A stretch of 57,209 nucleotides of DNA from Candidatus Babelota bacterium (lineage in GTDB: Bacteria; Babelota; Babeliae; Babelales; Vermiphilaceae), in the NCBI GenBank assembly GCA_029262555.1, contig JAJCZE010000013.1:1-57209 (forward strand). Reading direction: 5' to 3'. The notes under the pieces were generated by a model. It saw nothing but the letters and a program-made list of their open reading frames with translations. It did not search any database and was not told the DNA's origin. Made by a program: the position numbers and the translations under genes. Of the stretch, positions 27,225-57,095 are shown one piece after another (positions within the stretch are counted from its first letter, which is position 1; each line of letters begins with the position of its first letter).

Positions 27225-27755
27225 TTATGAAATCAAATGCCAGCCATCAGTGTACTGATATTTGCGCAGATAAGATACGCTCGAAACGGCACAACTTAAT
27301 GCATACGTACAGGAATGATTCGCATCAGTAAGATATATAGTTCCAGACTGAATCACTCCATCCGGATGAAACGTTATGCTATCGCCCGTAAAAGTAATCG
27401 GCTTTTGAATGTCTAAATGGGGGCTGCCAGGCGGCCCTTTCACTCCTGGCTGCGTTCCAAATCTTACCTGTGAAGGTAGGCGATATGTTTTTCCATCCAT
27501 GCAATAACTATTTTGTCTGACATCAAATAAAAGCGTTTGCGGGGCATGAAGCATGAGCGCTTTTCGCTGTAAATAATATGAAGAGCTATACAAATGCTCC
27601 AACTCCGCACGCACAAGCATACGAGAAAGAAATGAACTATGTGCCCCCGTAAGCAATACTAAAATAGAAATCAGCGCTACGACAATTAAAAGCTCTATAA
27701 GAGAAAATGCCGATCGATTATTCGCCCGCAGTGGCCACAGAAAGAACTTCTTCAA
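27225..27755 (-). CDS. type II secretion/type IV pilus pseudopilin
   Basis: The product (176 residues) has the prepilin N-terminus: a basic leader, then FSLIELLIVVALISILVLL, with Glu at +5, the methylation and assembly motif. Cleavage would follow Ala, not the usual Gly. The C-terminal half is a globular beta domain with a Cys pair, like GspH-type minor pseudopilins. No ATG is close to the cleavage site; TTG at 27755 with AGAGGGG ten bases upstream gives a normal short leader and is preferred to ATG at 27791. It overlaps the gspE end by 38 bases. Confidence 0.75.
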   Translation of the reverse strand: MKKFFLWPLRANNRSAFSLIELLIVVALISILVLLTGAHSSFLSRMLVRAELEHLYSSSYYLQRKALMLHAPQTLLFDVRQNSYCMDGKTYRLPSQVRFGTQPGVKGPPGSPHLDIQKPITFTGDSITFHPDGVIQSGTIYLTDANHSCTYALSCAVSSVSYLRKYQYTDGWHLIS

Positions 27756-29415
27756 CAGTAGTAAGCCCCTCTTTGATTCGTCGAATGCCATCTTGCACAA
27801 GAAGCGTCATACCGTCTGCAATGGCCTGTTTTTTTATCTGGCCAGTATCCGCACGTTCCATAATCAATTTTGCAATATCTTCACTGACTTTCATAACTTC
27901 AAAAATTGGAATTCGCCCTTTATAGCCGGATTCACTACACTCTGAACATTTTCCTGGCTCGTAAAACGTAATACCTTTTGCTTCCTCGGGAGTGATACCC
28001 AATCTGCGCAATAGATCTTCTGGTGGATTGTATTGTTTGCGGCATTTTTCGCACAACTTGCGAACGAGTCGCTGTGCAATAATAAGCTCAACGGATGATG
28101 CAATTAAAAATGGCTCCACGCCCATGTCTACCAATCGAGTTATCGAGGCAGGAGCATCATTCGTGTGCAAAGTACTCAATACAAGGTGGCCAGTAAGCGC
28201 TGCTTGAATTGCAATTTGCGCTGTCTCTTGATCTCGAATCTCACCAATCATCACAACGTCTGGATCTTGTCGTAAGATAGAGCGTAATGCTGATGCAAAC
28301 GTCATGCCAACTTTATCTTTTACTTGCACTTGTCCAATCCCAGCAAGTTGATACTCAACGGGATCCTCTACGGTGATAATATTGGTGTCTGGCTTATTGA
28401 GAGCAGAAAGAACGGAATACAGTGTGGTAGTTTTACCAGATCCTGTTGGGCCGGTTACAAAAATAATGCCATTCGGCTCTTCAATCGCCTCGCTTACCCA
28501 CTTATAATCCTGCTCGCTTAATCCCATTTCTTCTAACGGCTTAAATGAACGTGATTTATCAAGTAAACGCATCACTACTCGTTCGCCATAAGCAACCGGC
28601 AAAATCGAAACACGAATATCAACCGCCTTATCTGCTAATTTAATATTAATACGGCCATCTTGCGGTATACGCTTTTCTGCAATATCAAGATTTGCCATAA
28701 TTTTAATACGGGAAACAAGGGCACCTTGTATTCGTTTTGGCACGGTCATCACTGTCTGCATCACACCATCAATACGAAAGCGAACTCGTAACTCTTTTTC
28801 AAATGGCTCAATATGAATATCGGAAGCACCCCGCTTAACGGCCTGAAATAAAATTTGATTTACCAACTTAATAACAGGAGCCTCACTGGCCATTGTCATG
28901 ATATCTTTTTCGTCGATGCCTTCTAATGCCACTTCATCAAGTTCTTTATCCTCTTCTTCCAGCTCCTCCATCATCTGCTTTCCGCCTTCAAGCGGATAAA
29001 ATTTATTGATTGCTTCTATAATAGTGGCCTCAGGCGCAACAGCGTATTTTACCTCTCCGCCCAACAGCATCGTAAGCTCATCTAGGGGTTGAAAATTAAG
29101 AGGATTACTGGTGACAACCGTTATCGCGCCATCTTTTTTAATGGGAATAACAACATTATCTCGCAAAAATTGAAGGGGGATTTTTCCAAGCAATTCAAGA
29201 TCAGCTTCTTTCTCTGTAATCGCATCAATGTATTCATATGAAGCATATTCAGCATATGCCTTTGCCAGCTGCTCTGCAGTTGCAAATTGCTTTTCAATCA
29301 AGCAGCGATCAAGCGATGCACCGGTTGACTCAATTTCTTTTTGACACTCTTCAACTTGTTGCGTGTTTACCACGCCTGAAGATACTAAAATATCTTCTAA
29401 CGCTTTTTTAATCAT
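27718..29415 (-). CDS. gspE: GspE/PilB-type secretion ATPase
   Basis: The protein (565 residues) has an N-terminal T2SSE_N domain (about 20-150), the ATPase core with Walker A GPTGSGKTTTLYSVL (about 325), Asp box ITVEDPVEYQL, Walker B VVMIGEIRDQETA, and a four-Cys zinc motif (CEKC...CSEC). It powers pseudopilus or pilus assembly at the inner membrane. GspE and PilB cannot be told apart from sequence alone; the adjacent pseudopilin fits either. The frame extends to GTG 29430, but ATG 29415 has GGAGAAAG ahead. Confidence 0.9.
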   Translation of the reverse strand: MIKKALEDILVSSGVVNTQQVEECQKEIESTGASLDRCLIEKQFATAEQLAKAYAEYASYEYIDAITEKEADLELLGKIPLQFLRDNVVIPIKKDGAITVVTSNPLNFQPLDELTMLLGGEVKYAVAPEATIIEAINKFYPLEGGKQMMEELEEEDKELDEVALEGIDEKDIMTMASEAPVIKLVNQILFQAVKRGASDIHIEPFEKELRVRFRIDGVMQTVMTVPKRIQGALVSRIKIMANLDIAEKRIPQDGRINIKLADKAVDIRVSILPVAYGERVVMRLLDKSRSFKPLEEMGLSEQDYKWVSEAIEEPNGIIFVTGPTGSGKTTTLYSVLSALNKPDTNIITVEDPVEYQLAGIGQVQVKDKVGMTFASALRSILRQDPDVVMIGEIRDQETAQIAIQAALTGHLVLSTLHTNDAPASITRLVDMGVEPFLIASSVELIIAQRLVRKLCEKCRKQYNPPEDLLRRLGITPEEAKGITFYEPGKCSECSESGYKGRIPIFEVMKVSEDIAKLIMERADTGQIKKQAIADGMTLLVQDGIRRIKEGLTTVEEVLSVATAGE

Positions 29416-29471
29416 TCTTTCTCCAGACACTGTTCATCGATTGATAGTAGCATACCATGCTGGCAAAAAGA

Positions 29472-50380: not shown

Positions 50381-50809
50381 TTAATAAGTAAAATACTGTC
50401 GAGAACCTTCTGGCTCACTCAGTGCTTCATCTAAAGAAAAGCTCCACTGCTTTACGGCTGCGACTTGCATATCATCACAATTTTTTGCTGAGCGCATTTC
50501 ATCTATAAGTAATTTTGTATCAGTAGACGAAGTAAATCCATAATATATTTCTAAAAACTTTATCATCCCATCAAATGCTTCTTGCTTAGTTAAAATACTT
50601 TTGTTTTCAATCGAATCAATCCAATCCTTCCAGATTGCAGGATCAATTGTAATATCATCAGATAAAAACTGCATTCCGCTCAATAGAGATCCAATATCGT
50701 CTGAAGCAGTAATCCTATAATGCTCTTCCAAAAAAATTCTCATTGCGTTATATGCTTGGAGTTTACTTAGCTTGTTCTTTATTGTCTTTATCCTTTTAGT
50801 GGGAGCCAT
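50381..50809 (-). CDS. immunity-like protein with duplicated domain
   Basis: The 142-residue product has two related halves: YNAMRIFLEEHYRITASDDI with AIWKDWIDSI, and FDGMIKFLEIYYGFTSSTDT with AAVKQWSFSLDEAL. The first half has the AM-x-x-FLE-x-YY...SDDIG-x-LL pattern that I associate with immunity proteins of contact-dependent or other polymorphic toxin systems. It has no signal peptide, as expected of a cytoplasmic immunity protein. It lies downstream of the orphan toxin tip cassette. Confidence 0.6.
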   Translation of the reverse strand: MAPTKRIKTIKNKLSKLQAYNAMRIFLEEHYRITASDDIGSLLSGMQFLSDDITIDPAIWKDWIDSIENKSILTKQEAFDGMIKFLEIYYGFTSSTDTKLLIDEMRSAKNCDDMQVAAVKQWSFSLDEALSEPEGSRQYFTY

Positions 50810-50878
50810 CTTGATAGCGTTGCCTCTGAATTAAAAAACTTTAGGGACCTTATTGCTTACTCCCCTCTCATAAATGTC

Positions 50879-51220
50879 TTAATGGTCTATTCCAGACTTT
50901 CTCATTTTATCAATAAAGATCGCAGTGTCTTCTATTGTTTTTTTTAATTCAGAAAAAGTGTTGCATGTTTTTTTCAATAATGGATTATCCCAATCTTCAT
51001 CCTGTATCGCATACACCACAAATGATCCCTTTGGATCCAAGTCAGGCTGCCAGCCAACATCCAAGGTAAATCTATCACCGAAGGTAATTTGTAGCATATC
51101 TTCAGTTAACAAAAACTCTTGATCGTCAAAAGAACGGTTTTCATCGAGATCAAAACTATTCCAAGTAATCACACCATCAAGAATGTTTAATTTTTTGATA
51201 AAAGAATTCTTAGTTTTCAT
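50879..51220 (-). CDS. probable immunity protein of the orphan toxin tip
   Basis: The protein (113 residues) is soluble and acidic, with ITFGDRFTLDVGWQPDLDP and FVVYAIQDEDWDNPLLKK. Similar acidic WD/NPL patterns occur in proteins next to polymorphic toxins, but I cannot name the family. The ATG (AAGGAAGCA site) overlaps the toxin-tip stop by ATGA, the usual coupling of toxin and immunity gene. Confidence 0.6.
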   Translation of the reverse strand: MKTKNSFIKKLNILDGVITWNSFDLDENRSFDDQEFLLTEDMLQITFGDRFTLDVGWQPDLDPKGSFVVYAIQDEDWDNPLLKKTCNTFSELKKTIEDTAIFIDKMRKSGIDH

Positions 51221-51765
51221 TGCTTCCTTAAATATTTTAAGTATTCAGCTTCCGATATAGGATGTCCATGTATGGTATTCGCAGAGCATTCCACCCTCAT
51301 AAAGCAAGTTTCTTTACCCCACTTAGCCCCAATAATAGAATCACTTTTAAATACTTTGAAATTCTTACCTGGAGTTGTCACTGGCGTTCCATTATACCAA
51401 GCATGCAATTCAATATCTTTTATATTAATTTCTGGCTTATATTTTGCTACTCCCGTTTCAGTAGATCGAACTACTTTCTTCCAAGGCATTCCCTTTTTTG
51501 GCTTATGCTTTGACTTATAAGCTGCCCATTCTACCTTTGTAACATCACCACCACCCGGAGTGCTTTGATTATCTTGCCGTAACAAACTACCCGCATCGCT
51601 CGCTGCACTTGCAGCGCTAGCTCCTTGTGCAGCAGCTTGAGATGCCGCTGTAGCAGCTTTTGCATCAACTGCAATTTCAGCTGCCGTTTTTGCTGCCGAT
51701 GATGCACTAACAGCTACACCCTCAGGCAATGCAACTTGTGCACCTCTTGAAAGCTGCCCCATCAT
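51217..51765 (-). CDS. orphan polymorphic-toxin C-terminal cassette
   Basis: Residues 1-74 of this 182-residue frame nearly repeat the pre-tip region of the toxin at 52866-55016 (GQLSRGAQVALPEGVAVS to DNQSTPGGGD). Residues 75-182 are a different tip domain with WKKVVRSTETGVAKYKPEIN and CFMRVECSANTIHGHPISEA, which looks like a toxin domain of CdiA/Maf-type proteins (recalled, not searched). It lacks signal peptide and ribosome site, and homology continues 13 bases before its ATG, where a stop replaces a Gln codon. So it is a silent store of an alternative tip. Confidence 0.75.
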   Translation of the reverse strand: MMGQLSRGAQVALPEGVAVSASSAAKTAAEIAVDAKAATAASQAAAQGASAASAASDAGSLLRQDNQSTPGGGDVTKVEWAAYKSKHKPKKGMPWKKVVRSTETGVAKYKPEINIKDIELHAWYNGTPVTTPGKNFKVFKSDSIIGAKWGKETCFMRVECSANTIHGHPISEAEYLKYLRKQ

Positions 51766-51778
51766 TTCTTATAAAAAT
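51544..51778 (-). repeat. 235-bp repeat, copy in orphan cassette
   Basis: This stretch matches 53370-53604 at roughly 90% identity with equal length and no indel. It ends abruptly on both sides: on one at the end of the PGGGD-coding part, on the other 13 bases before the orphan ATG. Confidence 0.85.
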
Positions 51779-51860
51779 ATACGACTTCCGCAACGGAAAT
51801 ATTGAGTTTACCGTTAGTTTAAGCCACATTCAGACAATGCTTTCTGAGTTGAGAACTTAG

Positions 51861-51890
51861 ATAAAAAGAAAGGGCTGCAAGAAGCAGCCT
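51861..51890 (-). terminator. terminator after the three immunity-like genes
   Basis: Leftward AGGCTGC and GCAGCCCT form a stem with a five-base loop, followed by TTCTTTTTAT. It separates the toxin operon from the orphan cassette. Confidence 0.7.
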
Positions 51891-51894
51891 ATGA

Positions 51895-52200
51895 TTATGC
51901 ACAATAATCAAGAATTTCAGGCCAATCGTCCATTTTCAATGCCTTTATACCACTCGATAAAGCCTTGCTGTACACGAACATACTTACATCCGGCACACTG
52001 CCAATGACAGCCTCGGGGTTGTTAAAATCTATACTCACTACAGGATTTGAGAAAGTTGAGGTGGTATAGAAAAAGATATTATTACTCTCTCTATCAACTC
52101 TCATATAAAAATCTCTTTCCTTCATCTCACTACCATAAACAAGATAGTCACCGACGGTTCCTTCAGAGGCCAATCTGCGAATTTTAACGTGTATTCCCAT
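51895..52200 (-). CDS. small immunity-like protein, paralogue C
   Basis: The 101-residue product belongs with the next two upstream genes to a local paralogous set: strands YLVYGSEMKERDFYMRVDRE and NNIFFYTTSTFSNPVVSID, then a helical end ALKMDDWPEILDYCA. All three are about 100 residues, lack signal peptides and end with a similar W/Y-P-x-x-x-x-Y-x-A pattern. AAAGGATATG precedes the ATG. Its place directly downstream of a toxin suggests an immunity protein. Confidence 0.6.
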   Translation of the reverse strand: MGIHVKIRRLASEGTVGDYLVYGSEMKERDFYMRVDRESNNIFFYTTSTFSNPVVSIDFNNPEAVIGSVPDVSMFVYSKALSSGIKALKMDDWPEILDYCA

Positions 52201-52229
52201 TACATATCCTTTAAAGAACTCAAAGAAAC

Positions 52230-52538
52230 CTAAGCTGAATAACTCATTTTCTCAGTAAATTCTTTTGTATTTAACGCCTTTAGAAGCTTAGACAATGCTC
52301 CAAAAAAAGCTCTTTCATGCACTTCTGGTATTGTGCGTATCAGATTCTCTTCATCATCACAATTTAGAATAGAAACTGGATTTGTTGACTCTGGAGTATA
52401 ATAAAAACGCAATTGTCGCTTGCTAGGGTCAACTTCAACATAGAAATCACGACTATCAAAATCTTCTGTAGACACTCTATAAAATGGTATCCCGTTATTC
52501 CCTAATATTTTATCCATTTTTATCGCACCAACACCCAT
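52230..52538 (-). CDS. small immunity-like protein, paralogue B
   Basis: This 102-residue paralogue has GIPFYRVSTEDFDSRDFYVE and LRFYYTPESTNPVSILN in the same places as its neighbours and ends TEKMSYSA. Divergence from the other two is large (perhaps a quarter to a third identical by eye), as in immunity families that follow different toxins. It is 29 bases after... the third copy begins 29 bases downstream, and it starts 11 bases after paralogue A. AAGGAATG is the ribosome site. Confidence 0.6.
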   Translation of the reverse strand: MGVGAIKMDKILGNNGIPFYRVSTEDFDSRDFYVEVDPSKRQLRFYYTPESTNPVSILNCDDEENLIRTIPEVHERAFFGALSKLLKALNTKEFTEKMSYSA

Positions 52539-52549
52539 TACATTCCTTA

Positions 52550-52852
52550 TTAGGCAGCATAAGAAATACCACTCGGATAATGATCCAAATTTAAAATATC
52601 AATTGCTCTGGCTAAAACTGGAGCAAGAATTCGGTTATCAATCATGCTTACCGCACTAAAAGAAAAGTCTTTTTTAGGATCTATTGAAATTACAGGTTTA
52701 TCAAAATTATCTGATAAATATAAATCCAAAGAGTTATTGATTCTATTAATAGCAATAAAAAAAACGTTAGCGACAGAAGCTCCTGAAACCCTATAAAAAG
52801 CTATGCCATTTTTTTCCGAAAGTTTATCTAAATTAAATGAAATTTTACTCAT
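52550..52852 (-). CDS. small immunity-like protein, paralogue A
   Basis: The first of the three paralogues (100 residues) has GIAFYRVSGASVANVFFIAI and LDLYLSDNFDKPVISIDP, then YPSGISYAA at the end. It begins 13 bases after the toxin stop with a GGAG site, the classical position of the cognate immunity gene. Cognate pairing with the resident tip is inferred from position only. Confidence 0.65.
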   Translation of the reverse strand: MSKISFNLDKLSEKNGIAFYRVSGASVANVFFIAINRINNSLDLYLSDNFDKPVISIDPKKDFSFSAVSMIDNRILAPVLARAIDILNLDHYPSGISYAA

Positions 52853-52865
52853 AAATACTCCGTAT

Positions 52866-55016
52866 TTAACTTAGTGATTTATTCCAATCATAAAATACAT
52901 TTGTTAACTCATGTGTTGGATCATGAGGTAATTGAAAAGATTCTTTGAAGATTGATTCTGCTAATTCATGTTTTAACATTAAAATATCTGTAGAAAAAGC
53001 CTGATTGTTCTGAAGTCTACTCCAAGCAGCAGCCATGTCCCCATCAGCAAAAAAACGTCGCTGTCCGTGATGCTTTAAATTATGTGTTTCAAAAAAAACA
53101 TGATTTTTTACACGATGAATCATTTCTTTAGGTAGTCCAGTATTTTTTGCTATTTTTAGTATATCATCGGTTTGACGAATTTGTTCATAGGCCATCTCTG
53201 CTTCCTGTTCATATTTTAAATATTTTTGCAAGTCTGTAGGTGTAACTGATCTAACCTCTGCTTGAGGCAATCTCTTTTCTACTTTTTCTGCAATATCAAA
53301 CCATTCTTGATGCACAGACAGTTTTTCCGATGCAACCGACAATTGAACAGCTTCCTTACTCACTCCCTTATCACCACCACCCGGAGTGCTTTGATTATCC
53401 TGTCGTAACAGATTTCCCGCATCGCTCGCTGCACTTGCAGCGCTAGCTCCCTTCGCAACAGCCTGCGCCGCCGCTGTAGCAGCTTTTGCATCAGCTGCAA
53501 TTTCAGCTGCCGTTTTTGCTGCCGATGATGCACTAACAGCTACACCTTCAGGCAATGCAACTTGTGCACCTTTTGAAAGCTGCCCCATTACTTCTTGTAA
53601 AAATGGTGTCTCATTAAGTGCGGTGCCTACAAATGACACACCGCCTTCTGCAGCTTTGCCAGCAACTTGAGGGCCATATTTACCGAGAAGAATTTGCCCC
53701 GTTATATTCCCAACAAGCCGTGCTTTTTGTTCTGAGGTTAATCCAGCAATGTGTTCCATACATGCAGCATACGTTTTGCTCATGGATTCAGCTCGAGCCT
53801 GTAATCGCTCTTTATGCGCTTGCATATCAGCTGCGGTAGGAAATTCAGCATCCGGCGCCGAAAAAACATCAATCATAAACGGACCAATTTCATCGGCTAA
53901 TTTCATAGCACCTTCTGCGATATTTTGTGCAGCTTGAATTGGATGCAATACAGTGTCCACTGTAGCTACCAGCGGATCAACCAATGCTCCTTCCAAAAAA
54001 GCGTGAGTAATACTCACACATCGTTCCGCAGTCATTGCACCAGTTTGCGCTGCTGCAGAAAGCAGCTCATGCAGTTGGTCTAATCGTGCACCCCGATCCT
54101 TAACAGATTTAGCTAAGTATTCTTGCACTAATGCAGCATCTGTAGCAGTAGTTGTTACCATATCAGTAACGTCTTCATGCTTGCCGATTGGCACATTTGA
54201 TTGCTGCGCTAATTGCTCTGCAATAGGAGATCCAAGCGTTACATCTCCAAGAATTGATCCATCTGGCGCCTTTCCATCCGTAAAACCAAATTCTCGCGGC
54301 GCTTCTCCATGGCGAAGCGTAGTCCTTAGAGTCGGCCCCATTTTTTCTTGATAATCTGAACGCGCTTCAAGCAACAATTCTGCCTTATCTAATAGATCAT
54401 ACCCACGAGCTGCAATATGCTGCTCTAGTCGCAAAAGATATTGCTGATGACCAGGCATCCCTGGAAACTGTGTAGCGTATTTAAATGGAGACAAACGCCG
54501 AATTTTCTTAATAGCTTGTAAGGCTTCTTCCAGCGTTCCCGTTTTAATAATATGCAATCGCTTGGTCATCGGATCTTGCAGAATCTTATTTACTTTATCG
54601 ATTTGAGTCTGAATTGTTTTCTTGCCAAAAAAACTACCAGCTAACTCCCTTTCAAGATTTTCTTTTTTTTTCTCTATCTTTTCAAGATCACCTGCCATTT
54701 GCCAATGCACAAGTTCTACCCTCAAAGGGTCAGGAAGGGTACTATGCTCACTTGTGCATGCAGCATTGATAGTATCTTTCACCGTTACAATGGGATATCC
54801 ACCTGGCATAGGAGCAGCCGGATGTTGATCAGTATGAAAATAAGCAGTTTCAAAGCGATTTGCCTCTGGGGCACTGCCTGTGGCTGCAAACGTATCAGGC
54901 TCAAATGTACAACGAAATGTACTCTCTGGTCTGAGTACTGGATCATACGTTGGAGCTGCACTTATCAGAAAAGCAGTCCAAAAATGTAATAGAAGTATGA
55001 TGCAATTCTTAGTCAT
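52866..55016 (-). CDS. secreted polymorphic toxin
   Basis: The 716-residue protein has a signal peptide (CIILLLHFWTAFLISAA), a large N-terminal region without recognised domain (to about residue 470), an Ala-rich pre-tip segment (471-549) ending QSTPGGGD, and a tip of about 167 residues. The tip has GLPKEMIHRVKNHVFFETHN, DMAAAWSRLQNN and ILMLKHELAESIF; the His-Glu pair recalls tip domains of Rhs/CdiA-type toxins, though its activity is unknown. The ATG at 55016 follows GGGGGACT. The AAA+ gene lies 17 bases upstream and three immunity-like genes follow. Confidence 0.75.
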   Translation of the reverse strand: MTKNCIILLLHFWTAFLISAAPTYDPVLRPESTFRCTFEPDTFAATGSAPEANRFETAYFHTDQHPAAPMPGGYPIVTVKDTINAACTSEHSTLPDPLRVELVHWQMAGDLEKIEKKKENLERELAGSFFGKKTIQTQIDKVNKILQDPMTKRLHIIKTGTLEEALQAIKKIRRLSPFKYATQFPGMPGHQQYLLRLEQHIAARGYDLLDKAELLLEARSDYQEKMGPTLRTTLRHGEAPREFGFTDGKAPDGSILGDVTLGSPIAEQLAQQSNVPIGKHEDVTDMVTTTATDAALVQEYLAKSVKDRGARLDQLHELLSAAAQTGAMTAERCVSITHAFLEGALVDPLVATVDTVLHPIQAAQNIAEGAMKLADEIGPFMIDVFSAPDAEFPTAADMQAHKERLQARAESMSKTYAACMEHIAGLTSEQKARLVGNITGQILLGKYGPQVAGKAAEGGVSFVGTALNETPFLQEVMGQLSKGAQVALPEGVAVSASSAAKTAAEIAADAKAATAAAQAVAKGASAASAASDAGNLLRQDNQSTPGGGDKGVSKEAVQLSVASEKLSVHQEWFDIAEKVEKRLPQAEVRSVTPTDLQKYLKYEQEAEMAYEQIRQTDDILKIAKNTGLPKEMIHRVKNHVFFETHNLKHHGQRRFFADGDMAAAWSRLQNNQAFSTDILMLKHELAESIFKESFQLPHDPTHELTNVFYDWNKSLS
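53370..53604 (-). repeat. 235-bp repeat, copy inside the full-length toxin
   Basis: This is the in-frame partner of 51544-51778; it codes for the Ala-rich segment before the tip. Recombination between both copies would delete the present tip and the three immunity-like genes and fuse the orphan tip in frame. Confidence 0.85.
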
Positions 55017-55033: not shown

Positions 55034-56482
55034 TTACATTACAGCGCAACCGCCAGCTTCTTTTTTACTAGCCGCTGCCGCGGCTGCTGAAGCACCCTCC
55101 ACCTCAAAGTGCGATCTTACTCTGTCATTTATTGTAGATAAAATATCTAGTTGGGCAGGAGTTAAAATAGCCTTATGGTGATCCAATTCAGACTGAGAAA
55201 GAGCTTGACGTGAAATTGTAGTTGTTGATTGCAATTGCCCCACTAAATCATAACTATACTTAGTTTTTTGAGTTGATACCGTAGCGCGTGTTATTTTCTG
55301 CTGTTGCACAAAGTGCTGATCTTGCTGTGCTAGAGCTTCCCTATGCCGACGCTCTTCATCAGTCACGTCCTCTTGGCCATGCTTTATGCGTAGCTTTGTT
55401 CCTTGAATAATTTGAGCCGCAGCTTCTAAATGCGCACGCGTAATAATCATTAGAGCATCAGGGCCCTCTGTCATTGCCTGAAATTGTACAGCTAGCGCAA
55501 ACTCTTTAAGATTACGGCCGGTATACCCAGCAAGATTCGACATATTCTCATCGATATATGCCTCAGCATCCGGAGATAATACAATTCCATCACCAAGAAG
55601 TTTATCAAGAAAAATACGCTTTCTTGCTTCTGGATCTTTTGGTGGCAATAATTCAATGCAACGGGCCAATATACGGTCTTTTATTTGAGGTGGAAGTTTA
55701 TCCACTCGATTCATTGCTCCAATGAAAAACAACTTATCATTATGCTCTTGGCTATCAAAGAAAGACCAAAGCGCTTCTGAAGTAGCATCCGTATCATGAT
55801 GTTCACTGTTATAATGCTCTAATGCCAAGTTAAGCTCATCCCAAAAGACAACTGTTTCTTTATCTTCTGCTACGATCGCTTTCAGTCTTGCCATAAGCTC
55901 AGCAGCTGTACCATTACGCTCTTTTCTATAAACGCCTTGATGCGTAAGTGTTTTTAATTCCCAATTCGCCTTATACGCTACGGCTTTTGCTAACGTGGTC
56001 TTACCCACTCCAGGCATCCCATCTAAAAACATATACCTACAAGGAATAATACCTGGCCAACGCCTTGGATTCTTCAAATAAAGCACCACCTTTTTTACAA
56101 AATCTGGAGCATCTTGATACACCGATTCCATTTCTGCAATCGTTGCCCCATGAAATAATGGTAACTCTTCGGCCTTGCCCGGACTATAACCTGCACTGGC
56201 ACCGGCTGCCGTTGTACCTGCAACTTTTTCAACGGCTTTTGGCGCTCCAAACTTAGGCACTACACCTTTGGACGCACCTCTTTTAGGGGGTCCGAATTTG
56301 GGTGATCCGAATTTAGGTCTTACACCTTTGGGCGCACCTGATTTACCAGTGCCACCAGCAGAAGCGGCTGCAGGGGCAGCGCCTCCAGAATCGGCAGAAA
56401 ATGAATACATTGGAACTAATAGAAGTGAGAAAAGAAATAGGGCTCGATTACTACCTCTCCATGACCGTTGCTTAACTGCCAT
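55034..56482 (-). CDS. secreted AAA+ ATPase with CaaX-like C-terminus
   Basis: The protein (482 residues) has a signal peptide (ALFLFSLLLVPMYSFSA), a low-complexity basic region with repeats of the type PKFGSPKFGPPK (about 45-85), and an AAA+ domain: Walker A FLDGMPGVGKTTLAKAVAY, Walker B ETVVFWDELN, sensor 1 FFIGAMNRVD and an Arg-finger region PQIKDRILARC. The end reads KKEAGGCAVM: Cys, two aliphatics and Met, the form of a farnesylation box. ATP is absent from the periplasm, so an exported AAA+ ATPase implies action in a host or target cytoplasm. AAGGG precedes the ATG. Confidence 0.8.
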   Translation of the reverse strand: MAVKQRSWRGSNRALFLFSLLLVPMYSFSADSGGAAPAAASAGGTGKSGAPKGVRPKFGSPKFGPPKRGASKGVVPKFGAPKAVEKVAGTTAAGASAGYSPGKAEELPLFHGATIAEMESVYQDAPDFVKKVVLYLKNPRRWPGIIPCRYMFLDGMPGVGKTTLAKAVAYKANWELKTLTHQGVYRKERNGTAAELMARLKAIVAEDKETVVFWDELNLALEHYNSEHHDTDATSEALWSFFDSQEHNDKLFFIGAMNRVDKLPPQIKDRILARCIELLPPKDPEARKRIFLDKLLGDGIVLSPDAEAYIDENMSNLAGYTGRNLKEFALAVQFQAMTEGPDALMIITRAHLEAAAQIIQGTKLRIKHGQEDVTDEERRHREALAQQDQHFVQQQKITRATVSTQKTKYSYDLVGQLQSTTTISRQALSQSELDHHKAILTPAQLDILSTINDRVRSHFEVEGASAAAAAASKKEAGGCAVM

Positions 56483-56720: not shown

Positions 56721-57095
56721 ATGCAATCGAATAAGCGAACAATAATTATTAAAGACCAAACGTACGATTCACTTGAGAGTGCTGCTAAAGCATTCGGAAG
56801 ACACCGAAACACAGTCGATTATCGCCTTTCAAAGGGCTGGACTCCTGAGCAAGCTATGGGGCTTGTGCCGCCTCCAAATTTTGCATGTAAAACTCCTGGT
56901 ATTCCTGTCCAAGTAAAAAATCAAAAGTTTAAAACTATAAAAGCTGCTGCAAAACATTTCAATCGAGCCTATACACACGTCATCGAAATGTTAAAAAAAG
57001 GCCGCTCCATTGAACAAGCGCTTGGTCTGGTTAAAAGATACGAACCCTTACAATCAAAAAATCCAGAACTAGGCTCTGTTGACTTTTCATCGTAA
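56721..57095 (+). CDS. protein with two NUMOD-like DNA-binding repeats
   Basis: The 124-residue product consists of two homologous units: YDSLESAAKAFGRHRNTVDY with SKGWTPEQAMGLV, and FKTIKAAAKHFNRAYTHVIE with KKGRSIEQALGLV. Each is a small helix-turn-helix with S/K-x-x-x-A-A-K-x-F and a final EQAxGLV, like the modular DNA-binding units of homing nucleases (NUMOD1-type) and of phage and giant-virus proteins. It may be a regulator or the binding half of a nuclease. No ribosome site is clear. Confidence 0.55.
   Translation: MQSNKRTIIIKDQTYDSLESAAKAFGRHRNTVDYRLSKGWTPEQAMGLVPPPNFACKTPGIPVQVKNQKFKTIKAAAKHFNRAYTHVIEMLKKGRSIEQALGLVKRYEPLQSKNPELGSVDFSS

Follow-up and report, generated by a model that had tools for sequence, protein, structure and literature searches.

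A secreted AAA ATPase of Dependentiae with a CaaX-type C-terminus, a probable substrate of host prenylation

Why does a bacterial ATPase predicted to be exported end in CAVM, a tetrapeptide of the CaaX type, which is useful only in a eukaryotic cytosol? The question is raised by a gene at one end of the window, i.e. the whole stretch of 57,209 nucleotides analyzed here, which is contig 13 of a source genome of 1.11 Mb. The source organism is placed in Dependentiae (TM6). Relatives in the same order include the cultured Babela massiliensis, which lives in Acanthamoeba, and Chromulinavorax destructans, which lives in a flagellate, each with a single-contig genome. Their chromosomes count 1,118,422 bases (PMC4378268) and 1,174,272 bases (PMC6561590), respectively. 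As far as they have been cultured, Dependentiae are obligate intracellular parasites of protists, and 44% of C. destructans proteins carry signal peptides (PMC6561590). Judged by sequence comparison, CAVM is probably a working CaaX box, and the exported ATPase would be prenylated by the host and anchored on host membranes.

The gene and its motifs are located as follows.

55034..56482, minus strand: secreted AAA ATPase (P0001), 482 amino acids, from the translation and Pfam PF00004
56393..56482, minus strand: signal peptide, residues 1-30, from the sequence and hydropathy class SP; its leader is common to five open reading frames
55997..56020, minus strand: Walker A motif GMPGVGKT, residues 155-162; G155, G158 and K161 are invariant in the homologue alignment
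55835..55852, minus strand: Walker B motif VVFWDE, residues 211-216; D215 is nearly invariant in the homologue alignment
codons 55037..55048, minus strand: CaaX box C479-A480-V481-M482 (CAVM), immediately followed by the TAA stop

The initial annotation described an AAA ATPase with a signal peptide, a basic stretch and a terminal GGCAVM. The first and last of these descriptions are borne out. The signal peptide, MAVKQRSWRGSNRALFLFSLLLVPMYSFSA, is recognized by its sequence pattern, with a basic n-region, a hydrophobic core and an SFSA end. The AAA domain (PF00004, residues 152-271) is found at E 1.7e-16, with 61.3 bits against a cut-off of 21.2; both Walker motifs are intact and are accompanied by a sensor Asn (GAMN) and conserved arginines, including R270 (arginine finger). 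Signal peptide, Pro/Gly/Lys-rich linker, AAA domain, helical C-terminal part and GGCAVM follow each other in this order. Translation of the minus strand gives the C-terminus AAAAAASKKEAGGCAVM, with the TAA stop at 55034-55036, and C479, at position -4, is one of three cysteines in the protein. The basic stretch was overstated: the last 20 residues contain 2 Lys and 1 Glu, and a polybasic targeting signal is rejected for this ATPase. By sequence, the tail is Ala/Gly/Lys-rich; a single-sequence AlphaFold model with a pLDDT (predicted local distance difference test) of 40 was set aside. Among solved structures, its closest relatives by sequence are VCP-like ATPases, CDC48, spastin and Msp1. With the CDC48/PAN/spastin/Msp1 type the protein shares the PF00004 core, Walker A and B, the Asn sensor and the arginines; unlike them it is predicted to be exported and has N- and C-terminal parts of its own. 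Its scores lie far under the family cut-offs (CDC48, 43.6 versus 802.65 bits; FtsH, 22.6 versus 600 bits). The leader is 70-82% conserved in four other open reading frames of the same genome. In near-identical form, over ~29 residues, it starts at least five frames of the source genome (window 56393-56482, L002, L005, L007 and L062), with strongly diverged bodies, and several frames of the related genome G001 also begin with it.

The evidence that carries the interpretation of CAVM comes from the phylum. The sample comprises 2,058 non-overlapping open reading frames in stretches, not whole genomes, from seven sets of Dependentiae genomes. The motif, Cys-a-a-X with an aliphatic a2 and a permitted X, was framed after the AAA tails had been seen and was slightly widened (N and T as X) before the larger sample. 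Sliding it inwards along the 796 signal-peptide proteins gives a chance rate of ~0.0012 per protein (0.98/796). At the exact C-terminus, 18 of the 796 have a strict CaaX end versus 0.98 expected (Poisson 4e-17), an ~18-fold excess, and proteins devoid of a signal peptide show two in 1,262, with 2.4 expected (Fisher P 2.6e-6 between the two groups). The excess vanishes upon displacement of the motif, with counts of 18, 0, 1, 1, 2 and 0 at shifts 0, 1, 2, 3, 4 and 5. When a signal-peptide protein has Cys at -4, an aliphatic a2 and an X in MSQALC accompany it in 18 of 29 cases, against a background of 5.9%. Cytosolic proteins with Cys at -4 were considered and rejected; they mostly show ordinary motifs (SecA-like ends, CIGK ends) and lack the CaaX pattern. 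Of the CaaX proteins, eight come from 200 kb of C. destructans sequence (CVIS, CAIS, CVVS, CTIS and others), and the B. massiliensis sample contributes four (CLLS, CLVS, CALS and CTIS). Most of the class consists of ankyrin-repeat proteins, the others being AAA proteins and small proteins of unknown type; a WD40 protein ending in CITM is a near-CaaX case just outside the strict motif. Ankyrin and WD40 are domains of eukaryotic type. The ATPase, with its Cys, aliphatic a2 and permitted X, has the end of a CaaX effector, and its best reading is that of a member of a putative Dependentiae class of signal-peptide plus CaaX proteins; selection on the motif is found for the class and not for this gene alone.

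Some Dependentiae proteins resemble a known effector. F-box-like N-termini (LPPEL, LPAEL) are seen by eye after the signal peptide in three proteins (L176 9995-11050, L185 17778-19142 and L087 18270-19130), two of which continue with ankyrin repeats, and their CaaX or near-CaaX ends are CLVS, CQLY and CQIL. The layout of F-box-like segment, ankyrin repeats and CaaX end is the architecture of Legionella AnkB; a Pfam search of these proteins gave no F-box match at E 0.01. At another locus (L049 3809-4716), two related small signal-peptide proteins with CTIL and CSIQ ends lie directly after toxin/immunity genes, and the AAA proteins there have no CaaX.

Secreted AAA proteins were also collected across the phylum by searching 101 genomes, reading the ends and removing FtsH proteases. 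Among the 53 different homologues, 10, from several families of the order, have a strict CaaX end; 0.025 are expected from the motif slid inwards, and 0.07 would be predicted from the general rate in signal-peptide proteins. Closest matches to the ATPase (22-32% overall identity) carry the tails CLIS, CSIQ, CNIL, CLIQ and CSIV, and further homologues end in CEIL, CSLL, CVVS and CSIM; most of the latter belong to other families. The initial annotation had made conservation of the last four residues its check, and the outcome is divided: six of the 11 closest matches have CaaX, two of the other five being broken by a stop, and many AAA homologues keep the ATPase without the Cys. When the tail is left out of tree building, the CaaX label changes eight times on the tree in the simplest account, and at least five changes are forced by well-supported branches; instead of a single inheritance, the tail has a history of repeated gain or loss. 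A hydrophobic segment ends several of the homologues that have no CaaX, which gives the impression that the two tails may be alternative ways to membrane anchoring. In contigs of other genomes, a protein search with the ATPase found no relative, and an alignment-based search found only distant AAA proteins from other phyla. The loci of these distant proteins, 194 kb with 15 signal-peptide frames, contain no CaaX and are too few to serve as a control.

Could CAVM nevertheless be a chance sequence, unselected and ignored by the host? Accident alone should give a genome with a few hundred signal-peptide proteins ~0.4 strict CaaX ends, so that the single CAVM end is not significant on its own. The 10 CaaX ends among secreted AAA homologues, with six in the 11 closest, argue in the other direction, and chance is an unlikely explanation. 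Several considerations do weigh against a host-modified CaaX box. In the ~40% of the source genome that was sampled, the ATPase tail is the only strict CaaX end (1 versus 0.22 expected), which leaves the relatives to carry the case. Open reading frames were called mechanically and signal peptides by hydropathy. Twelve of the 18 CaaX proteins fall in one ankyrin-linked cluster; because such paralogues inflate the raw P value, the count was also made by sequence families, where the excess falls to 6 versus 0.98 expected (P 5e-4). About four-fifths of the secreted AAA homologues have no CaaX, among them the same-leader frames of the source genome, a point that also favors chance. Finally, immunity-like genes adjacent to the ATPase gene, described below, suggest bacterial targets for part of the locus.

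A second alternative keeps the cysteine functional and moves it into the bacterial envelope, as part of a disulfide, a metal site or an unknown sorting signal, the CaaX appearance being due to convergence. The ATPase would cross an oxidizing periplasm, and an invariant Cys does occur in sorting tags at the C-terminus of bacterial proteins, such as MYXO-CTERM (PMC11980579). However, MYXO-CTERM requires a transmembrane helix after the Cys, which the ATPase does not have. The pattern in Dependentiae consists of Cys at -4, an aliphatic residue at -2 and S, M, Q or L at -1, with nothing beyond, and matches prenyltransferase specificity, whereas a cysteine-only function needs neither an aliphatic a2 nor a fixed distance to the end. 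An envelope role is accordingly the least probable of the alternatives. The proposal of the initial annotation, that the CaaX box serves host enzymes on an ATPase acting in a eukaryotic host, finds comparative support in a phylum of protist parasites, in an excess restricted to signal-peptide proteins and in the ends of the AAA homologues.

If the CaaX box is read by the host, the ATPase needs a way out of the bacterium and a foreign modifying enzyme. Two secretins are encoded in the source genome, and two further candidate parts of an outer-membrane export route lie in the window.

27718..29430, minus strand: GspE/PilB-type ATPase, candidate part of an outer-membrane export route (TIGR02533 GspE, 668 bits versus a cut-off of 630)
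27225..27800, minus strand: pseudopilin/prepilin beside GspE (TIGR02532 prepilin N-terminus, over cut-off)

For injection systems, the source genome gave no match to VirB4 (PF03135) of type IV secretion, a single marker whose control matches in Caulobacter, and none to FHIPEP of type III secretion, a single marker with a working control. In B. massiliensis, no secretion system other than type II was found, and ankyrin and AAA-Ulp1 proteins with signal peptides are proposed to act in the amoeba (PMC4378268). In 87 Dependentiae genomes, nothing scored over the cut-off for the farnesyltransferase (FTase) alpha subunit (PF01239), which points to the host as the modifier; a search for the beta subunit (PF00432) came back empty, as did its controls, and is uninformative. 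Methionine as X in CaaX favors FTase. We infer a course of export into the host, prenylation, anchoring and ATP-driven remodeling of a partner. The ATPase would leave the bacterium via Sec and then by a type II or type IV-pilus-like outer-membrane route through a secretin, and enter the cytosol of the protist. There, C479 would be prenylated by host protein FTase and, after trimming and methylation by the host, the protein would sit on host-facing membranes. Host ATP would power the AAA ring, and the remodeled partner would most likely be a co-encoded toxin-like protein or a host complex.

The co-encoded candidate is found immediately downstream, since the ATPase gene is the head of an operon containing a large signal-peptide protein and immunity-like genes. 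The stretch 50381-55016 is a secreted polymorphic-toxin-like locus with the following genes.

52866..55016, minus strand: 716-residue signal-peptide protein (P0002) with a toxin-like exchangeable C-terminal domain, in operon with the ATPase gene at a 17-bp gap
52550-52852, 52230-52538 and 51895-52200, minus strand: three paralogous genes of ~100 codons, probable immunity genes, with mutual BLAST matches
51217..51765, minus strand: orphan second toxin-tip cassette, with the linker of the 716-residue protein and then a different C-terminal domain (63% over 126 amino acids to P0002 residues 476-599)
50879..51220, minus strand: probable immunity gene that goes with the orphan cassette, at 76% identity to one from the toxin locus G001:C63

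The C-terminal 170 amino acids of P0002 are common to proteins of G001 (35%) and of a second related genome, G023, that have different N-terminal parts, and homologues of the three small paralogues adjoin genes with the same C-terminal domain in both genomes. The neighbor gene thus combines an exchangeable C-terminal domain with adjacent immunity-like genes, as polymorphic toxins do, and its toxin domain has no Pfam name. In all, a large signal-peptide protein lies directly downstream of a secreted AAA gene at ~12 loci in nine genomes; three of these large proteins, in relatives, have an EndoU nuclease C-terminal domain, and small immunity-like genes come after several of them. Conserved neighbors, shared C-terminal domains and immunity-like genes together assign the ATPase to a secreted polymorphic-toxin-like locus. 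The AAA gene occurs as a tandem pair in four genomes, the second member usually with a hydrophobic tail, and a hetero-oligomeric AAA assembly is a possible reading of these sequences. Tandem pairs upstream of a large secreted protein are seen at L042, L040, L049 and L055. A secreted AAA gene elsewhere in the source genome (L052 8693-10161) is split into two open reading frames by a stop or frameshift, and a large gene is still present downstream. On the other side of the ATPase gene, window positions 56721-57095 encode a small protein whose NUMOD1-like repeats are of the kind seen in homing endonucleases and which has no endonuclease domain.

This neighborhood is the basis of a third alternative, in which the ATPase stays in the bacterium, where in the periplasm or cytosol it would export or unfold its toxin-like neighbor within an interbacterial polymorphic-toxin system, and has no task in the host. 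The recurrent large proteins with EndoU or other exchangeable domains and their immunity-like genes agree with it. Yet the signal peptide would send an ATP-dependent enzyme to a compartment lacking ATP unless the host cytosol is reached, the AAA partners repeatedly have CaaX or hydrophobic tails, and such neighbors are not shown for the wider CaaX class of ankyrin proteins. We regard a purely interbacterial role as improbable, though with somewhat more in its favor than chance or an envelope function; it is partly compatible with host prenylation, since the complex could act in the host cytosol. A broader proposal joins the two lines: each Dependentiae genome may encode as many as some tens of CaaX proteins that are exported via Sec rather than by injection, and at this locus a secreted AAA machine, with CaaX subunits and in relatives also hydrophobic-tail AAA subunits, may assemble on host membranes, where it would handle a polymorphic toxin secreted along with it. 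It is offered tentatively, with its truth in more doubt than that of the CaaX box itself.

The nearest parallels are effectors of other intracellular bacteria. Legionella Pel effectors have CaaX ends and a Cys-dependent membrane localization (PMC13081727). Like the Pels and AnkB (ankyrin, F-box, CaaX) of Legionella pneumophila, the Dependentiae proteins are CaaX-ended products of an amoeba-infecting intracellular bacterium, and ankyrin repeats recur among them. Unlike the Pels and AnkB, which depend on the Dot/Icm type IV system for their injection, the Dependentiae ATPase has a Sec signal peptide, in a genome where the VirB4 and FHIPEP markers were not found. We know of no AAA-ATPase CaaX effector in Legionella. 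In Salmonella, membrane targeting of GtgE, whose tail is CTIL, depends on the Cys and on geranylgeranyltransferase I (PMC13423502). GtgE and SifA are likewise CaaX-tailed, and CTIL also ends two Dependentiae proteins; the Salmonella proteins differ in using type III secretion, and their domains are unrelated. Within the phylum, the AAA-Ulp1 proteins of B. massiliensis are also secreted AAA ATPases and are thought to be active in the amoeba cytoplasm, but they are fused to a permuted Ulp1-like peptidase, CaaX is not reported for them and prenylation is absent from the main text of the paper (PMC4378268). The genome papers of B. massiliensis and C. destructans make no mention of prenylation (PMC4378268, PMC6561590), and no paper joining Dependentiae with prenylation was found in the open-access literature, subscription papers being outside the search.

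The documented cases in which a host prenylates bacterial proteins are mainly effectors of Legionella and Salmonella that are injected by type III or type IV systems. What appears to be new is the presence of CaaX ends on predicted signal-peptide proteins of Dependentiae, a deep phylum, most of it uncultured, where no injection system is recognized and the signal peptides are ordinary. Because a CaaX box is useful solely if the protein reaches a eukaryotic cytosol, it can serve as a sequence-only marker of host-delivered proteins. Such a marker is useful where signal peptides occur on nearly half of the proteins and a function is known for only a minority of the proteins that have one. Dependentiae parasites probably let their hosts fix bacterial proteins to host membranes, an idea that is directly testable in the two cultured members, B. 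massiliensis and C. destructans.
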